A stretch of 21,595 bases of DNA from a virus, in the IMG/VR virus record IMGVR_UViG_3300033148_009028, positions 1 to 21,595 of that record. One strand, 5' to 3'. The translations under genes were made by a program, and so were the position numbers. The notes beneath the pieces were generated by a model. That model was given only the letters and a program-made list of their open reading frames with translations. It was not told where the DNA came from and searched no databases. Each line of letters opens with the position of its first letter. The stretch's first letter is position 1. Of this stretch, positions 3,715-21,228 are shown one piece after another.

Positions 3715-4442
3715 TAATTGTATCCTTTCCTCTCAATAAAAACGTAGATGTTTATAATTCCAGTGTAACACGAATCATTGATTCCGTAAATATCCAGTAC
3801 TAAATAAACCGCAGGGAAATACCCGGGTCTTAACTCCAGCTCGTAGGCTGTGTCGCCCATGTACCAGTAAAGAGCGGAATCCTGAAGCGTCTCATAGAGA
3901 AATACCGGTTCAATCGTACTGATGTCCCAGCCCGCTCCGTATTTTATGTTTATGAATAACGAGTCGAGTTCACACCCGCTTACTTGGTAGGAAATGGAAG
4001 CGTCAACGGCGTCGCAGGAAGGTAGATAGATTCTTCCGTCGACTAAGGATTGAAAATTTATCGCGTTGACTTTGGTGTAAGCACCGGATGAATCACCAGT
4101 TACAGTATCACCGACGAAAAACTCACCACTTGCGTCGGATATATAGAGATTTCCTGAGCCTATTGAATCAATAGTCGCAGTCATACCGGAAGAATCTGCG
4201 GTTATGTCTTCACCCGCGCCGAATGTGCCGGTCGTAGTACCGATCTCAAGGTTGCCCCAGATATAGTCAGCAAGGTCAATAACTATCCGATAAGCAGTCC
4301 CATTACCGCATTTCCGGTAATCCGCGCTGACTATCGCTGTGGAATGCTGGTAATATGACGCGGGAAAAAGCTTCCAATCCTGACCGAAGACCATTGCCGA
4401 CATGAAAGTCAGTAATGCAACCGTAATCAGCAGTCGCTTCAT
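3714..4442 (-). CDS. Exported beta-rich protein with inserted two-repeat module
   Basis: This 242-residue protein begins M-K-R-L-L followed by about 14 hydrophobic residues and an F-G-Q cleavage-like site near residue 20, a textbook Sec signal peptide. It is a paralogue of the next upstream gene (4461-4964): both have a signal peptide, a beta-rich body and a near-identical Y-E-T-(L/I)-Q-D-S-x-L-Y-W-Y segment (183-194 here, 109-120 there), and both end in a hydrophobic strand with I-E-x-K. The 74-residue offset is explained by an insert at about 62-133. The insert contains two G-x-F-x2-G-(E/D)-x-(I/V)-T-x-D-S-S-G repeats, also found in the adaptor at 1732-2586. A secreted protein inside a head-tail gene block is unusual. 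Function is unknown. Confidence 0.8.
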   Translation of the reverse strand: MKRLLITVALLTFMSAMVFGQDWKLFPASYYQHSTAIVSADYRKCGNGTAYRIVIDLADYIWGNLEIGTTTGTFGAGEDITADSSGMTATIDSIGSGNLYISDASGEFFVGDTVTGDSSGAYTKVNAINFQSLVDGRIYLPSCDAVDASISYQVSGCELDSLFINIKYGAGWDISTIEPVFLYETLQDSALYWYMGDTAYELELRPGYFPAVYLVLDIYGINDSCYTGIINIYVFIERKGYN

Positions 4443-10889: not shown

Positions 10890-11492
10890 TTATTCTGAAT
10901 CCGTTGCCTCGGGTGGTTCGTCAACCTCTGATGGTGTATCATTCTGATCAGCACCCTCATCCGTCTCGGGTGGTTTACCATCTTCACTCGTCGAACCTTC
11001 AGGCGGTTGTTCGACTTTCGAACCGACATCCTCATCCGGAGGTTCAAGCGGAGGTTCAAGATCAATCTCCTTCAAGCGTTCCTCAATCGACGCACGTGTC
11101 GATTTCCGCCCGTCCCGGTCAAGTATTGCCTGCAGTAATGTGCGATCCGACGTTCCAGCGACAATCTTCTTGATTTTCCAGTGGTTAGTCTCCTGTCCGA
11201 TGCTTTCACCGTCGATGACCAACGGTTCCAACTCGTTGGCTTGCATCAACACGGTAACCTTCTTTTCAAGCTCTTGGATTTTCCAATTAAGGTGAAGGCA
11301 CATCACAGAAATCGCCCGGAAAGCATTACGGTTCACGTGTACGTTGTCTCCTGCGCCCTTCAGCGCCCGCGCCATATTCGCAGGATAATAATTGAACACA
11401 ACCTTGTTGTACTCGCTCATACTTTTCAGCTCTTCCGCGAAAGGTCCCTGCTCAATTTCAGTGATTACTGGTTTGTCATTACTCTCGACCAT
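10890..11492 (-). CDS. Unrecognised protein with acidic Pro/Glu-rich tail
   Basis: This 200-residue protein has a folded N-terminal part (about 1-105) and a low-complexity tail (about 145-200) made almost entirely of Pro, Glu, Asp, Ser, Gly and Thr (L-E-P-P-L-E-P-P-D-E-D and similar). The middle contains a helix with coiled-coil character: L-N-W-K-I-Q-E-L-E-K-K-V-T-V-L-M-Q. The gene overlaps the end of the terminase nuclease gene by 28 bases and precedes the portal. Its position suggests a packaging or head accessory role. A disordered acidic tail is common in proteins that sit on or near the portal or mimic DNA, but nothing specific can be claimed. Confidence 0.65.
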   Translation of the reverse strand: MVESNDKPVITEIEQGPFAEELKSMSEYNKVVFNYYPANMARALKGAGDNVHVNRNAFRAISVMCLHLNWKIQELEKKVTVLMQANELEPLVIDGESIGQETNHWKIKKIVAGTSDRTLLQAILDRDGRKSTRASIEERLKEIDLEPPLEPPDEDVGSKVEQPPEGSTSEDGKPPETDEGADQNDTPSEVDEPPEATDSE

Positions 11493-12487
11493 TTGTCTCT
11501 CCTGATATGTTTTGGAGTTTTAAGTGTCTTCAGTCGTTTACCAACGACACTCTCTTTCTGCTTATGCACTATTACCGGAGAATCAATGTCGTGAGCAACT
11601 AATATCCTTTCGACATCCATCAAGTGATCCTTTCCGGCTTTCTTGTCCGGCTTGTCCGTACCTTCTTTCTTGTGATAGTGCTTTTTTTCATACAGATAAT
11701 GTTGAAGCCCCGGATAAGCAAACTTTACTGGAAATCCTCTCCCGTCCTCGGATCTCCTGCCTTCAGGATGTAGCCGACCCGGAACAGGTGTTTCCATCCT
11801 CTTAACAAGTTCGATACTACCTTCTACGTCCCGGGTTCCCTTGAAGGGATATATACCTGCATCATTGTACGACTTAACGATGGAGCCTAAGTCTATGTTT
11901 GAACCTTCCCGGCGCCACGCGCTCGCGTCCATCAAAGTCGTCTCTATTAAAGATTCACCGTTATGATCTTCGTCGCCGAATACCGCGTTACATATAATCT
12001 GTGTTTTACGTTTAATCCCCTGAGCATGGGCATAAGCGGACTCGGCGTCCATTCCGGGTACGGCATCCCCAGCATAATATTCAGCGATCAGAAAACGCCA
12101 GCTTGGTATGTCCCTGCTCGGGTCGGCAGGTGTTATCGCATACCACAGACAAGCGGTAACAGCCACGCCGGGATCGATCGCCCGACGATATATCCAGTCC
12201 TTCTGAAGCGGTATAGGTCGCAGTAAAACGTGCACCCTGACATCAAACCGTGGATAAACCAACCCTCCCTCGGATGCGCCAAAATCTATCTCGTACTGCT
12301 GCTGGAATTTCCGCTCTTTTAACTGCCTAAGCTTTGATTCTTTCCAACTTTTACCCTTGCGATCCGGATCAAAATCCTCCACCATCCGGTAATAAATCGG
12401 TATGACCTTAATGCCACGGCTTGTCACATAGGGCTTGTAACGCTCCGCCCATGGCTTGTTCTTGTCTTCATCATTAAACCAGCTCAT
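11465..12487 (-). CDS. terL: Terminase large subunit, linker and nuclease part (split gene)
   Basis: This 340-residue protein carries the second half of a large terminase. Residues 60-82 (K-F-Q-Q-Q-Y-E-I-D-F-G-A-S-E-G-G-L-V-Y-P-R-F-D) match the linker usual between ATPase and nuclease domains. The RNase-H-like nuclease follows: strand 1 with A-I-D-P-G (Asp105), L-M-D-A-S (Asp187), and K-D-H-L-M-D (Asp287, Asp291) before the last helix. These are plausible metal ligands. Nuclease domains cut concatemeric DNA during packaging. The ATPase domain is missing here and is encoded upstream at 13094-13768, with the 12484-13128 ORF between. ATG 12487 overlaps the stop of that ORF as ATGA and has AAGG before it. 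Confidence 0.82.
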   Translation of the reverse strand: MSWFNDEDKNKPWAERYKPYVTSRGIKVIPIYYRMVEDFDPDRKGKSWKESKLRQLKERKFQQQYEIDFGASEGGLVYPRFDVRVHVLLRPIPLQKDWIYRRAIDPGVAVTACLWYAITPADPSRDIPSWRFLIAEYYAGDAVPGMDAESAYAHAQGIKRKTQIICNAVFGDEDHNGESLIETTLMDASAWRREGSNIDLGSIVKSYNDAGIYPFKGTRDVEGSIELVKRMETPVPGRLHPEGRRSEDGRGFPVKFAYPGLQHYLYEKKHYHKKEGTDKPDKKAGKDHLMDVERILVAHDIDSPVIVHKQKESVVGKRLKTLKTPKHIRRDKWSRVMTNQ

Positions 12488-13128
12488 GCTACCTTTTTAT
12501 CCTTAGATTCGGCGTAAAGAATGGGTTCACGTCCCATAAAACGTAGCTTCAGGAATTCCACACCATTGTTCATAGCCACCCTGATATCACGTAAAACCAT
12601 CGGAAATTTATTCTTATGAATCGGTCTTTCATTCTCATTTAATTCTGTATCTCCTGGGAGGTTTTTATAATACTCATCGGTTCGGCTGGCGAGTTCCGGG
12701 TAGTCGTTACCTCTGAATCGTTTTGCTATTTCCGGAAAATCCTTCCATAACTTTTCACCACTATTCAAATACAAATTTGCCGGATTGTAAATTCTATATA
12801 CCTTGAAGCCGGCGTCGCATAACAGTTTTGTCAAATAGATATGATTACGACCTTTCTTTTCGATCACTACTTCATTCGTACCTAAACCTTCCGGCTTATG
12901 CCCCTTGAGGTGATCCATCAGAAAGCGTTGCAAGTCATCATCCCGCTGCTCGCCGAACAGTGTGTGATAAGATGAATATGCCTTGATCCGTTTACTTAAA
13001 CTGTCTACCGTTACTTCTTTCTGATCCGGTGTTATTTTCAGTACCAGACCAACCATCGCAATGGATGACCGGGAAATGGAAAAACTTAAGACCTTATACT
13101 GCATTGATGATTTCGTCGATGTCTCCAT
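12484..13128 (-). CDS. ORF inserted between the terminase ATPase and nuclease ORFs; RNase-H-like
   Basis: This 214-residue protein separates the two pieces of the large terminase. It overlaps the ATPase gene by 35 bases and the nuclease gene by four. ATG 13128 has AGAGGA at about six bases, supporting an independent start. Its pattern recalls a second terminase-type RuvC/RNase-H nuclease: a first strand V-L-S-F-S-I-S-R-S-S-I-A-M-V-G-L-V-L (13-30), V-V-I-E-K-K-G-R-N-H-I-Y-L-T-K-L-L (87-103, like the V-V-I-E-x-N-x-G motif), and K-N-K-F-P-M-V-L-R-D-I-R-V-A-M-N-N-G (172-189). The usual first Asp is replaced by Ser or Ile, so it may be inactive. It could be an insertion, a duplicated domain, or a homing nuclease. 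Confidence 0.7.
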   Translation of the reverse strand: METSTKSSMQYKVLSFSISRSSIAMVGLVLKITPDQKEVTVDSLSKRIKAYSSYHTLFGEQRDDDLQRFLMDHLKGHKPEGLGTNEVVIEKKGRNHIYLTKLLCDAGFKVYRIYNPANLYLNSGEKLWKDFPEIAKRFRGNDYPELASRTDEYYKNLPGDTELNENERPIHKNKFPMVLRDIRVAMNNGVEFLKLRFMGREPILYAESKDKKVA

Positions 13129-13768
13129 CGGTATCCTCTACTAAGCGTTGAAAATAGCCGGGCGCCGCCGAACTGACTAACACAATTAACTGACTACATG
13201 GCACCGCTGCCTTGTATGAATCCTCTAATTCCGGTTGATACGCACACTCGTCGCTGAAAAGAACCGTCGGAACACGAGAATGTACTATGTCACCACCCTG
13301 CGGGATCGCGGCTATAGTGGACCCGTTTCTAAATTCGATCCCCGACTCCTTCTGACGGTTTAGAGATCGTAAAAGCGGATATTGTTGATGAAAATAATCC
13401 TTTTGCTTCATGTTTTCATAGAGAAATCGTACTCTTCTAACTTGATAAATAGCATCCTTCTCACGCTTCGACTGAAAAAGTATCGATTGATTACCACGCT
13501 TCATGGCGTGACCAAGACTCCAGCCACACATTAACCAACTTACCATCATCTGGCGTGACTTGGGAACAGCGATTATCTGACATTCCTTTTCCCTCTGATA
13601 TTCAATCAAAGCCTTATCTAATTCATTACTCAACATTTCTAAGTGAAACCAATCAGGAAAAGACTTCACCTCTGTATACTGTTCATGTTCGTCGAAAGTC
13701 CTGAAGAAGTTTCTCATTAAATACCAGTTCGACTGATTTATCAAATACATATCTGCCTTGGTAATCAT
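13094..13768 (-). CDS. terL: Terminase large subunit, ATPase part (split gene)
   Basis: This 224-residue protein is the packaging motor ATPase. Residues 66-77 (I-A-V-P-K-S-R-Q-M-M-V-S) are the deviant Walker A typical of large terminases (K-x-R-Q-x-G/M-x-S). T-V-L-F-S-D-E (168-174) is Walker B with catalytic Glu. V-L-V-S-S-A-A-P-G (196-204) is the coupling motif III. An upstream F-x-L-x2-(Y/F)-Q region (about 40-57) fits the adenine-binding part. It ends only 20 residues after motif III and has no nuclease. Together with the 340-residue ORF downstream (564 residues in all) it makes a normal-length large terminase. Its start overlaps the upstream gene as ATGA. Confidence 0.88.
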   Translation of the reverse strand: MITKADMYLINQSNWYLMRNFFRTFDEHEQYTEVKSFPDWFHLEMLSNELDKALIEYQREKECQIIAVPKSRQMMVSWLMCGWSLGHAMKRGNQSILFQSKREKDAIYQVRRVRFLYENMKQKDYFHQQYPLLRSLNRQKESGIEFRNGSTIAAIPQGGDIVHSRVPTVLFSDECAYQPELEDSYKAAVPCSQLIVLVSSAAPGYFQRLVEDTDGDIDEIINAV

Positions 13769-19453: not shown

Positions 19454-19684
19454 ATGAACAGAAAAGAAGCGCAACGTAAGTTATCCCTGATCGATCCTAA
19501 CCTAATTATCACCGGATCACGTGGTGATTGGTATATTGATCGCAGGGATACAGATTATTTTGATCGGCGTTACAGTGGGGCAAAGACTCTTGCAGAACTG
19601 CTGGAAACAGCGGAAGAAAATAATCAGCCGGATTACTTTGAATGGTTGGAATCCAGGAAGTCCAAAACCAATGATCCCGCTTGA
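19454..19684 (+). CDS. Early protein of unknown function (76 residues)
   Basis: ATG 19454 follows GGAGTACAGTACAATG, nearly the same leader as the gene upstream. The protein has N-R-K-E-A-Q-R-K-L-S, then L-I-I-T-G-S-R-G-D-W-Y-I-D-R-R-D-T-D-Y-F-D-R-R-Y-S-G-A-K and a C-terminal acidic helix (L-A-E-L-L-E-T-A-E-E). The repeated D-R-R plus aromatic pattern suggests a compact fold of strands around a helix. A tRNA-like element begins 12 bases after its stop. No family recognised. Confidence 0.65.
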   Translation: MNRKEAQRKLSLIDPNLIITGSRGDWYIDRRDTDYFDRRYSGAKTLAELLETAEENNQPDYFEWLESRKSKTNDPA

Positions 19685-19696
19685 TGGAGATCAAAT

Positions 19697-19740
19697 AGCG
19701 CAGCTTGGGGCTTGGGCGGGTTCGACTCCCGCCCTGCGCT
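19697..19740 (+). ncRNA. Anticodon-less tRNA-like element 1
   Basis: AGCGCAG (19697-19703) pairs perfectly with CTGCGCT (19734-19740), like a 7-bp acceptor stem. GGCGGG (19715-19720) pairs with CCCGCC (19728-19733) around the loop TTCGACT (19721-19727), a perfect match to the T-loop consensus TTCRANY. The 3' strands are contiguous, so the two stems form a 13-bp coaxial helix. D and anticodon arms are replaced by 11 bases, CTTGGGGCTTG, which retain a GG like the D-loop GG that contacts the T-loop. It is followed by CTACA, not CCA. It lies between two early genes. A functional tRNA is impossible without an anticodon arm. Confidence 0.75.
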
Positions 19741-19792
19741 CTACACAAAGAGCGATTAACTAAAGGCAGACAAAACAACCATAGGAGTAACA

Positions 19793-20014
19793 ATGGACTT
19801 AGCAGAGGAAGCATTTCAAGGCGTTTGCCCACGTTGTAAGAGCGAGAGTATTAAGTGGGGAGAGAGCGAAATCGAAACCGACTATCATCGTTATCATGGA
19901 ATTTGCGAGGACTGCGGTCTTGATATTTCTGAGGAACACACTCTTGTATTTAGTCAACAGGTAGTCGTAACTGAAGACGGCAGTTCCCCAATCTTCATCC
20001 CTTCAGGAGAGTAA
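19793..20014 (+). CDS. Zinc-ribbon-like early protein
   Basis: This 73-residue protein has two Cys pairs, C-P-R-C (12-15) and C-E-D-C (37-40), spaced like a zinc ribbon. Between them are I-K-W-G-E-S-E-I-E-T-D-Y-H-R-Y-H-G-I. The second pair is followed by G-L-D-I-S-E-E-H. The C-terminal part is a strand-rich tail. The ribosome binding site AGGAG lies six bases before the ATG. It stops one base before the next ATG (TAA-A-ATG). Zinc ribbons bind nucleic acids or proteins, and in phage early genes they often modify host transcription, but this is inference only. Confidence 0.75.
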   Translation: MDLAEEAFQGVCPRCKSESIKWGESEIETDYHRYHGICEDCGLDISEEHTLVFSQQVVVTEDGSSPIFIPSGE

Positions 20015-20015
20015 A

Positions 20016-20378
20016 ATGTCAACTTTTGTAGAGTTTACGATAGATATTGAAGGCTATCGACCTGAACGGAAAGACCTGATCCTTTCGGCTGTACGGGATA
20101 ACTTTCTTAGTGATTTCGACAACGTAGACGAAGGAAAGGACGATAACGGCAATCCCTGTATAGAGATTCATGCAAGTTGCAATTTCTCAGGGGATTCAGA
20201 CGATTTTGGGAAGCAGGTTATCAAATCTGTTTGGGATGGAAACCTTGTTTACTGCCACGTCGAGGTAACGATGCGTTTTCCGGAGTTCGCTCCAGTCGAC
20301 GGGATCGAGGGGGACGAGGAGTTGTACAAGGAGTTGTGTGGCATCATACCTAACCCACCGGAACAGAAATCTGCGTGA
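20016..20378 (+). CDS. Early protein of unknown function (120 residues)
   Basis: The start has GGAGAGTAAA before ATG, a leader also seen before the gene at 21378. The protein begins F-V-E-F-T-I-D-I-E-G-Y-R and is acidic (many Asp in 33-65), with C-I-E-I-H-A-S-C-N-F-S-G-D-S-D-D-F and V-Y-C-H-V-E-V-T-M-R-F-P. Alternating strands and a helix suggest a ferredoxin-like fold. It ends in P-P-E-Q-K-S-A. The next ORF begins inside its stop, with overlap GTGA, or might be reached by a -1 shift at AAA 20367-20369. Confidence 0.7.
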   Translation: MSTFVEFTIDIEGYRPERKDLILSAVRDNFLSDFDNVDEGKDDNGNPCIEIHASCNFSGDSDDFGKQVIKSVWDGNLVYCHVEVTMRFPEFAPVDGIEGDEELYKELCGIIPNPPEQKSA

Positions 20379-20539
20379 TCTGTGGGGAGTCTGTCGCTTG
20401 GGGAAGCGGCAAGTTTGTCAACAGAATCGGGATAACTGACGATTACGAGCAGAGGAAGATCGACAGACACCCACACCCAGAGGGCGAGTGGATGTGTGAA
20501 GAGTGCGAATTGGCGCTTGAACACGAGAACAATTATTAA
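20375..20539 (+). CDS. Small zinc-ribbon-like protein, start uncertain
   Basis: A frame opening at GTG 20375 (overlapping the previous stop) gives 54 residues with one C-E-E-C pair (41-44) and H50. One codon before the GTG the frame has TGC, giving C-V-I-C, the second pair of a zinc ribbon. With the GTG start, the first Cys is lost. A -1 shift from the preceding gene at AAA (20367-20369) would enter this frame at ATC-TGC-GTG and make both C-x2-C pairs. Either a coupled GTG start or frameshift translation is possible. There is no start codon between the in-frame TAA and the TGC. The protein ends six bases before tRNA-like element 2. Confidence 0.6.
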   Translation: MICGESVAWGSGKFVNRIGITDDYEQRKIDRHPHPEGEWMCEECELALEHENNY

Positions 20540-20545
20540 CACTCC

Positions 20546-20592
20546 GGCTTTCGCTTGGCTGCTTAGAGGCGGTTCGAATCCGCCTGGAAGCC
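20546..20592 (+). ncRNA. Anticodon-less tRNA-like element 2
   Basis: GGCTTTC (20546-20552) pairs with GGAAGCC (20586-20592), 7 bp with one G-U. AGGCGG (20567-20572) pairs with CCGCCT (20580-20585) around TTCGAAT, again the T-loop consensus. As in element 1 the helix is 7+6 bp with contiguous 3' strands. The insert is GCTTGGCTGCTTAG (14 bases), sharing CTTGG and GCTT with element 1. Both elements are followed by CTACA. It begins six bases after the stop of the zinc-ribbon gene. Confidence 0.75.
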
Positions 20593-20870
20593 CTACACTT
20601 AAAAATTTGTTTTAGTGTCGTGTTAGCAGTTATCTTTACGATAGAACCTGAACGATCCTTGAACACAGGACAACGACGACACCGGTCATTCCGGCGGTGT
20701 AGTCCTGAATGCGCCTCAAACATTAGGCGGTGTTATTATTTGATATTTCGTCAACCTTCATCAGACCTTGTTCGACCGAGAGGTAAATCGGCGGGGCAAT
20801 CCTGGTTATGCCCTTAACCTTGTGCTGCTGGCAACTACTGCGCTGAGACCTGCCTATGCGCAACATATAC

Positions 20871-20918
20871 AACGGCGGGCACTATCGGCTTGGCTACCTG
20901 ATAGCGGGCGTTCTTTTT
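20871..20918 (+). terminator. Weak hairpin followed by T-tract
   Basis: AACG (20871-20874) pairs with CGTT (20909-20912), and CTATC (20882-20886) with GATAG (20900-20904), around a 13-base loop. It is followed by CTTTTT. The stem has internal loops of 7 and 4 bases, so it is a modest terminator at best. It could end a transcript carrying tRNA-like element 2. Confidence 0.35.
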
Positions 20919-21040
20919 CAAAGCCAACCCTAGCGGGTCTGACATATATGAGAATCTTCATACTTAAGTATTAGACGCTTAATGTTTAATTGTGCGTGAA
21001 ATAATCAACCAAGTCGCGCCAAAAAGCTGAAAGCGTCGAA

Positions 21041-21112
21041 ATGCTTAACCGGAGTGGTATGTTGTACTGCGAGGAGTGCTTTGCTCATCCGGCTTTGTGC
21101 GACCGGATGTAG
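21041..21112 (+). CDS. Possible 23-residue Cys-rich peptide
   Basis: ATG 21041 opens 23 codons ending in TAG. The peptide has the run M-L-Y-C-E-E-C-F-A-H-P-A-L-C, that is C-x2-C-x2-H-x3-C, like a zinc knuckle and echoing the C-E-E-C of the gene at 20375. The second ATG (21059) has GGAG four bases upstream and would give 17 residues. It overlaps hairpin CATCCGG/CCGGATG. It may equally be a remnant of a larger gene. Confidence 0.25.
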   Translation: MLNRSGMLYCEECFAHPALCDRM

Positions 21113-21145
21113 GGCTAAACCCTAAAGCGATCAGCTATGCGCGGC

Positions 21146-21193
21146 GGTTGACGATCTGAGAGATCTTCGCGGAGTTCGCAACTCCGGTCAACC
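21146..21193 (+). ncRNA. Possible tRNA-like element 3 (three-way junction)
   Basis: GGTTGAC (21146-21152) pairs perfectly with GTCAACC (21187-21193). CGGAG (21170-21174) pairs with CTCCG (21182-21186) around a 7-base loop TTCGCAA, and the 3' strands are contiguous, giving 7+5 bp as in canonical tRNA. The 17-base insert forms its own hairpin GATCT-GAG-AGATC. The loop departs from the T-loop consensus at its fifth base. It lies before the ribosome binding site of the 21229 ORF. It may be a relative of elements 1 and 2 or an independent three-way junction. Confidence 0.55.
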
Positions 21194-21228
21194 ACTAAAG
21201 GCTAACATTTTAACAACAGGAGAACAAA

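Follow-up and report, generated by a model that had tools for sequence, protein, structure and literature searches.

Anticodon-less tRNA-like minihelices at gene junctions of a virus genome and of several phage lineages

Two tRNA-like minihelices in a cluster of small genes

The window analyzed here is the whole 21,595-base virus record IMGVR_UViG_3300033148_009028, in which structural genes occupy the minus strand and small genes are clustered on the plus strand from 19230 onward. Two anticodon-less tRNA-like minihelices are present on the plus strand at 19697-19740 (element 1) and 20546-20592 (element 2), as identified by sequence reading, folding, and a covariance model containing no window copy (R2, described below). 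Element 1 is preceded by a 76-aa ORF (19454-19684, plus strand), which ends 12 nt upstream, and is followed by a zinc-ribbon ORF of 73 aa (19793-20014, plus strand) that has an AGGAG Shine-Dalgarno and starts 52 nt past the element. A 120-aa ORF (20016-20378, plus strand) is also located between the two elements, along with a 54-aa ORF with cysteine pairs (20375-20539, plus strand), whose GTG start overlaps the upstream stop and whose end lies 6 nt before element 2; the latter gene was missed by the ORF caller in our spacing survey and was added by direct reading. On the minus strand, a large-terminase-like gene appears, as judged by eye, to be split (11465-13768): an ATPase-like ORF (13094-13768) and a nuclease-like ORF (11465-12487) flank an unrelated-looking 214-aa ORF (12484-13128), possibly an intron or homing insertion. 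Family searches with the two outer ORFs returned no match.

Read directly, element 1 is AGCGCAG-CTTGGGGCTTG-GGCGGG-TTCGACT-CCCGCC-CTGCGCT, and it is followed by the trailer CTACAC (19741-19746, plus strand), of which CTA occupies positions 74-76; this trailer class is common to the relatives and to phage tRNA genes. The conserved core of the element (19698-19739) consists of a 6-bp acceptor (GCGCAG/CTGCGC), a linker bearing TTGG, a 6-bp T-stem, and the T-loop TTCGACT, while the outer pair A19697-T19740 corresponds to N-1:N73. Element 2 is GGCTTTC-GCTTGGCTGCTTAG-AGGCGG-TTCGAAT-CCGCCT-GGAAGCC, likewise followed by CTACAC (20593-20598, plus strand), and its core (20547-20591) is similarly enclosed by an outer G-C pair at N-1:N73. 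Its acceptor holds one G-U pair, and the remaining pairs are as first described. The stems, T-loops, and positions just past stop codons that the earlier note attributed to both elements are thus present letter for letter.

The probability of such structures arising by chance was estimated with a descriptor (T-loop TTCRANY, 5/5 T-stem pairs, 6/6 acceptor pairs, an insert of 6-23 nt, and at most one G-U), which matches twice in the real window and 0.0033 times per shuffled window (one match in 300 dinucleotide shuffles). Folded alone, neither element has an unusual energy (z -1.5 and -1.7). When element 1 is folded with 81 nt of context, an alternative downstream hairpin, GCGCTC..GAGCG(A), is preferred over the minihelix. 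Because of these ordinary z values and the competing hairpin, the case for the elements rests on comparison and not on free energy.

Elements 1 and 2 are not tRNA, not tmRNA, and not members of an Rfam family. ARAGORN predicts no tRNA gene and no tmRNA in the window, and an Rfam search of the window gave no match at gathering level, including for tRNA (RF00005). With the threshold relaxed to E 5, the sole tRNA-clan match is to 17 nt of the tmRNA (RF00023) T-arm (19716-19732, within element 1), at 16.6 bits compared with a gathering threshold of 47 and with no full-length match. Of the canonical tRNA features, the 12-bp acceptor/T-arm stack and the T-loop consensus are kept; inserts of 11 and 14 nt stand in place of the D and anticodon arms, and there is no anticodon arm with a 7-nt loop. 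The only part that matches in sequence is the T-arm (that of tmRNA), a stretch too short to show descent from a tRNA gene.

The window may hold more than the two minihelices originally described, both of which are present. A third, lower-certainty candidate (21146-21197, plus strand) was recovered by a relaxed scan, by folding, and by weak matches to both of our covariance models, R1 and R2 (21145-21198). It reads GGTTGAC-GATCTGAGAGATCTTCG-CGGAG-TTCGCAA-CTCCG-GTCAACC-A-CTA, that is, a 7-bp acceptor (GGTTGAC/GTCAACC), an insert carrying a 5-bp hairpin (GATCT-GAG-AGATC), a 5-bp T-stem (CGGAG/CTCCG), a T-loop-like TTCGCAA, and A73-CTA, and it ends 31 nt ahead of a Shine-Dalgarno-preceded TTG start (21229). 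The relaxed descriptor is expected 0.027 times per shuffled window, and the fold has a z of -2.1; the stretch is retained as a candidate only, because its T-loop lacks A58 (C is at position 58) and its linker lacks GG. The surrounding ∼640 nt (20593-21228) contain no convincing gene and have a fold energy below that of 20 out of 20 shuffles (z -2.7), and may hold further structured RNA.

Distribution and gene-junction position in other phages

Relatives were sought in viral contigs, first with a pattern joining the T-arm to CTACA at the spacing seen in the window and then with a structural scan. These scans recovered many tRNAs and, outside tRNAs, the same object in L119, L023, L108, L059, and later (second scan) L146/L157, in each case located between co-directional genes. 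Rejected matches include those of the first scan in L046 and L055, which are chance pairings inside true tRNAs, and an AT-rich chance match at L109 2809. Among all T-arms the rate of short inserts is just mildly over chance; among non-tRNA T-arms short inserts are clearly raised, at 7 and 4 per 10-nt bin versus 0.9 (window and L023 copies counted).

The same 75-aa gene precedes the element in L010, L091, and L114, where the stems differ. Used as the query of a protein search, this gene yielded 79 homologous flavobacterial-phage loci (L163-L241), and the element is found downstream of the gene in approximately three quarters of them. The largest group consists of flavobacterial podoviruses, with terminase identities of 62% to MW202828, 44% to Elemovirus, and 37% to Cellulophaga phages phi13:2 and phi38:1; L119 and a further record, L410, have portal or terminase families in common with this group. 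No kinship to the flavobacterial group is visible for the window phage (P22-like portal, Shine-Dalgarno-using), for L108 (other portal and head families), or for L023, which has five tRNA-like elements, four of them without an anticodon-sized insert. In L108 the element is preceded by the gene for the major head protein, so the earlier note's placement of the elements between early genes does not hold generally.

Whole-record scans indicate that one or two copies per genome are usual, including in most flavobacterial-phage genomes. No clear copy was found in eight isolate relatives (phi38:1, Calle_3, phi13:2, phi46:3, Gundel_1, and elemo phages), and among 97 prokaryote species-genome loci retrieved with nearly the same motif there are none of this type, only two weak chance matches that are AT-rich or contain G-U pairs. 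Searches with the 120-aa ORF and the portal found no relatives of the window phage, and a search with its head protein found a single distant locus (24% identity); because these searches failed, the homologous junctions of this phage itself are not comparable. A search for relatives of L023 also found none. In phi38:1 (NC_021796), two annotated full-length tRNA-Glu genes (28605-28676 and 30575-30646) occur one at a time where small co-directional genes meet, as though positions like those of the mini-elements were also open to full tRNAs.

The placement of the elements relative to genes was surveyed for 27 copies. The distance from stop codon to element is often 6-19 nt, and longer where extra upstream sequence is present, while the next start commonly lies 15-60 nt past N73. 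The elements are between co-directional genes, and their orientation matches transcription in the cases examined. The L410 record has eight model matches, and six minihelices are found at junctions of one operon. CTAAAT or TAAAT comes after each of them, and a start codon lies ∼15-20 nt further; in two of these six, the upstream stop codon is inside the acceptor strand. Several larger tRNA-likes or hairpins are also at junctions of this operon: within L410 500-5300 (minus strand), other junctions have GGGCGG-TGAAATT-CCGCCC hairpins or CCCATCGGTTTGGCCG...ATGGG tRNA-likes in place of the minihelix. Among the loci homologous by the 75-aa gene, plain or long hairpins without a T-loop occur at the junctions of L198, L200, and L212, the junctions of L165, L169, and L171 carry nothing, and the inserts of L172 and L193 are longer. 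In L023 (7950-9850, minus strand), a repeated GTCCCAC(C/T)CC box stands ahead of several small genes. Next to these are four tRNA-likes that lack an anticodon and have either D-arm-like stems or short linkers, and a fifth whose insert is 46 nt long.

Conserved unit and covariation

The conserved unit comprises a 6-bp acceptor and a 6-bp T-stem (or 6 bp, one mismatch, and 5 bp), giving 12 stacked positions as in tRNA, with a linker of 10-17 nt that replaces the D and anticodon arms and bears an almost invariant D-loop-like GG, followed by the T-loop TTCGAYT and finally N73 and CTA. Linker sequences are kept within subgroups (CTTGGAGCAGAGG, AATGGTTNAN). The 13-bp stack of the window copies is therefore the 12-bp unit plus an additional N-1:N73 pair, an extra pair that also occurs in tRNA-His. 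Both window copies do end in the letters CTACA, as first noted, but since their thirteenth pair is N-1:N73 this stretch is a trailer starting at position 74, and the conserved end is N73-CTA. CTA is the commonest trailer among the fetched phage tRNA genes (247/768), a count inflated in part by CTACA search patterns, and in the L163-L241 loci, which were not selected for their trailer, nearly all mini-elements finish in N73-CTA.

Other tRNA-like RNAs with altered arms were observed in the retrieved records. In L062 (IMGVR_UViG_3300014047_000002, 3962-4003, minus strand), a perfect 7+5 bp minihelix (TACATAG-TTGGCAA-T-arm-CTATGTA) appears to be nested in the anticodon-loop region of a gene resembling tRNA-Tyr (GGGGGAG...CTGTATA...CTCCCCC), so that a tRNA-like element would be inserted in a tRNA. 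Approximately 2 kb past the mini-element, L206 (5142), L216 (5101), L215 (4769), L174 (5121), and L185 (4919), all on the plus strand, encode larger tRNA-like genes with an acceptor, a stemless GGTAAG D-loop, a T-arm, and an ACTA end, in which the anticodon arm has become a stem with a large loop. A conserved tRNA-like RNA at L163 3692 and L168 4554 (plus strand) has an acceptor, a T-arm, ATACAGGAAAC, and a hairpin with a GTAGATCT loop that replaces the usual arms, and tRNA-like genes at L140 8133 (minus strand) and L109 10966 (plus strand) have a normal D-arm and T-arm without an anticodon arm (insert of 28-29 nt).

Base pairing is maintained across the copies. In 19 diverse copies, 96.1% of cells are paired versus 53.3% in shuffles; in 35 relatives with the window copies left out, 96.0% versus 56.5%; and in 31 copies from several phage lineages, 98.4% versus 53.8%, with two-sided changes at 12 out of 12 pairs and a score of 1.135 versus 0.218, although many copies in these sets came from a scan that demands pairing. 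A pairing-independent test was therefore applied, in which elements of homologous loci were located by T-loop and linker GG only. In 39 distinct homologous elements so located, acceptor positions pair in 85.5% of cases, compared with a shuffled mean of 56.4% and a maximum of 65.4%, and seven of the eight low scorers, as read from the alignment rows, pair fully one base over, as an 11-bp stack.

Model R2 was built solely from other phages; its members are mostly from the protein-homology set, the seed loci of which came from pairing scans, and alignment A5 was made with R1, a model that included the window copies. R2 finds element 1 (19697-19744) at 42.9 bits (E 1.8e-9) and element 2 (20546-20596) at 26.3 bits (E 6.2e-5), and its next match in the window has an E of 4.1. 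The earlier note had proposed selection on structure, to be checked with a covariance model and to be given up if no covarying homologs existed or if the elements proved to be decayed tRNAs. Covarying homologs do exist, junction position and the 12-bp ruler are kept, and a model free of the window finds both copies and nothing else. The test set by the note thus came out on the side of its proposal.

The elements belong to a class of phage RNA element that is apparently undescribed. In the literature searched, which was short on subscription journals and preprints, we found no description of a phage minihelix of this form, in agreement with the earlier note.

A possible role in mRNA processing and comparison with known systems

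We propose, with a probability of roughly one half, that the elements are natural minimal substrates of RNase P and RNase Z, serving as cis-acting processing signals by which the polycistronic mRNA of the phages is punctuated. Of the roles that the earlier note suggested, cleavage sites for RNase P or a tRNA maturase have the best support. The observed basis is their structure, covariation, position at co-directional junctions, recurrence in unrelated phages, and multiple copies per operon. This reading is favored because the elements keep just those parts that the enzymes read, at cistron junctions and with variable acceptor sequence; the free variation of the acceptor likewise favors structure-reading enzymes over an aminoacyl-tRNA synthetase. 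The distance from T-loop to end is 12 bp, as in tRNA, and this distance is the ruler of RNase P.

Within the long transcript, we infer, the element would fold as the acceptor and T-arm half of a tRNA, with 12 stacked pairs from T-loop to cleavage site, and the linker GG could dock on the T-loop, rebuilding the elbow. Host RNase P would cut on the 5' side of the stack, directly past the upstream stop codon, and RNase Z would cut after N73, freeing the downstream cistron with a short leader and its own start signal, with a predicted effect on expression; the excised stump would have no decoding role. The phage would in this way borrow host tRNA maturation enzymes to split an operon transcript into units with defined ends. 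That several unrelated phage lineages evolved such punctuation by anticodon-less tRNA mimics, with host enzymes dividing the transcript at six or more sites per operon in one phage, is a tentative conclusion to which we give somewhat less than even odds.

Several observations count against processing. Substrates of RNase P usually pair with the enzyme through RCCA; here no CCA is encoded and most copies have N73-CTA, so the 3' RCCA contact is lacking. Where the stop codon is inside the acceptor strand, as in two of the six L410 minihelices, cleavage by RNase P would yield an mRNA without a stop codon. The eight isolates without a clear copy, the one or two copies in most genomes, and the competing hairpin at element 1 also weigh against it. 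Furthermore, a generic hairpin may suffice at some junctions, since those of L198, L200, L212, and L410 carry hairpins without a T-loop and those of L165, L169, and L171 are empty.

The hairpins of L198, L212, and L410 also suit an unlikely alternative in which the element is an intercistronic insulator, a stable hairpin that would prevent base pairing between the coding region before it and the leader of the following gene, or would tune translational reinitiation or mRNA decay. The tRNA shape would then be one of several interchangeable hairpins and cutting would not be needed, consistent with next starts close behind the element and with stop codons that overlap the stem. However, a mere hairpin requires no exact T-loop, linker GG, 12-bp length, or N73-CTA, all of which are kept while the stems change completely.

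The retention of what elbow- and acceptor-binding enzymes read, together with linkers conserved within subgroups, could instead reflect a function in trans, in which the excised stump, perhaps CCA-tailed, would act as a decoy or an inhibitor, either of an enzyme that handles tRNA or of a defense that targets it. We regard this as improbable, given that the stems vary freely from relative to relative and likewise within the genome that has six copies, that no binding sequence is conserved besides generic tRNA parts, and that placement is always intergenic and never that of a separate gene. A decoy for anticodon nucleases is rejected, as the elements have no anticodon, and the decoys or RNA guides suggested in the earlier note find no support, given freely varying acceptors and copies that differ within one genome.

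Related phages have complete tRNA genes and unusual larger tRNA-like genes in the vicinity, the inserts of some homologs (L172 and L193) are longer, and tRNA-likes that lack just the anticodon arm occur in other phages (L140, L109); these observations would suit unselected decay of tRNA genes that have lost their D and anticodon arms. This origin is very improbable and largely refuted by the covariation, because the stems keep pairing through repeated two-sided changes; ARAGORN also finds no tRNA at the window, L119, L108, L023, or L410 loci, and six copies punctuate one operon. Least credible is a DNA-level feature, tRNA-like by coincidence (a recombination or integration site, a gene-cassette boundary, or a replication signal): the elements are at gene boundaries, the L410 record encodes an integrase, and the T-arm/acceptor sequences of tRNAs serve phage integrases as attachment sites, but such sites conserve sequence and not pairing, whereas here sequence varies, pairing stays, and orientation tracks transcription in the cases examined.

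If processing by tRNA maturation enzymes is correct, tRNA maturation serves phages as a general means of cutting mRNA, and the substrates would be the smallest natural ones described; to our knowledge, mRNA cutting by tRNA maturation in this form is known only from mitochondria. A further conserved class of phage RNA, one that Rfam does not contain, would also be established, and hairpins at many phage gene junctions would be explained.

Among known systems, the closest include mitochondrial tRNA punctuation, in which intergenic tRNAs define mRNA ends; tRNAs between genes are the shared feature, although in that system they are full functional tRNAs and the setting is animal mitochondria. The tRNA-like domain of tmRNA (RF00023) shares the acceptor and T-arm, while the phage elements have no tag reading frame or pseudoknots. 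Plant mitochondrial t-elements are reportedly the subject of work by Hanic-Joyce in 1990 and by Forner in 2007. RNase P and RNase Z release them from the ends of mRNAs, and they acquire CCA but no amino acid (PMC11658184). The phage elements are similarly tRNA-like, on the same strand, without encoded CCA, and, as judged from gene positions, at mRNA ends or junctions; they differ from these organellar elements by the absence of both the D arm and the anticodon arm, by covariation at conserved junctions, and by their capacity to occur many times in one operon. The mascRNA/MALAT1 tRNA-like, which is not charged (PMC11658184), marks one mammalian lncRNA 3' end and is neither intercistronic nor from a phage. 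The same minimal architecture and 12-bp ruler are found in AT1 and pMini, model RNase P substrates consisting of acceptor stem, T-stem, and T-loop (PMC11143913). Those are laboratory constructs, as such minimal substrates have hitherto been, and if the proposed role is correct the phage elements, with a GG linker of 10-17 nt and N73-CTA in place of RCCA, would be their natural counterparts. In shape the elements correspond to a minimal RNase P substrate and in placement to a t-element, and their membership of either class by function is predicted.
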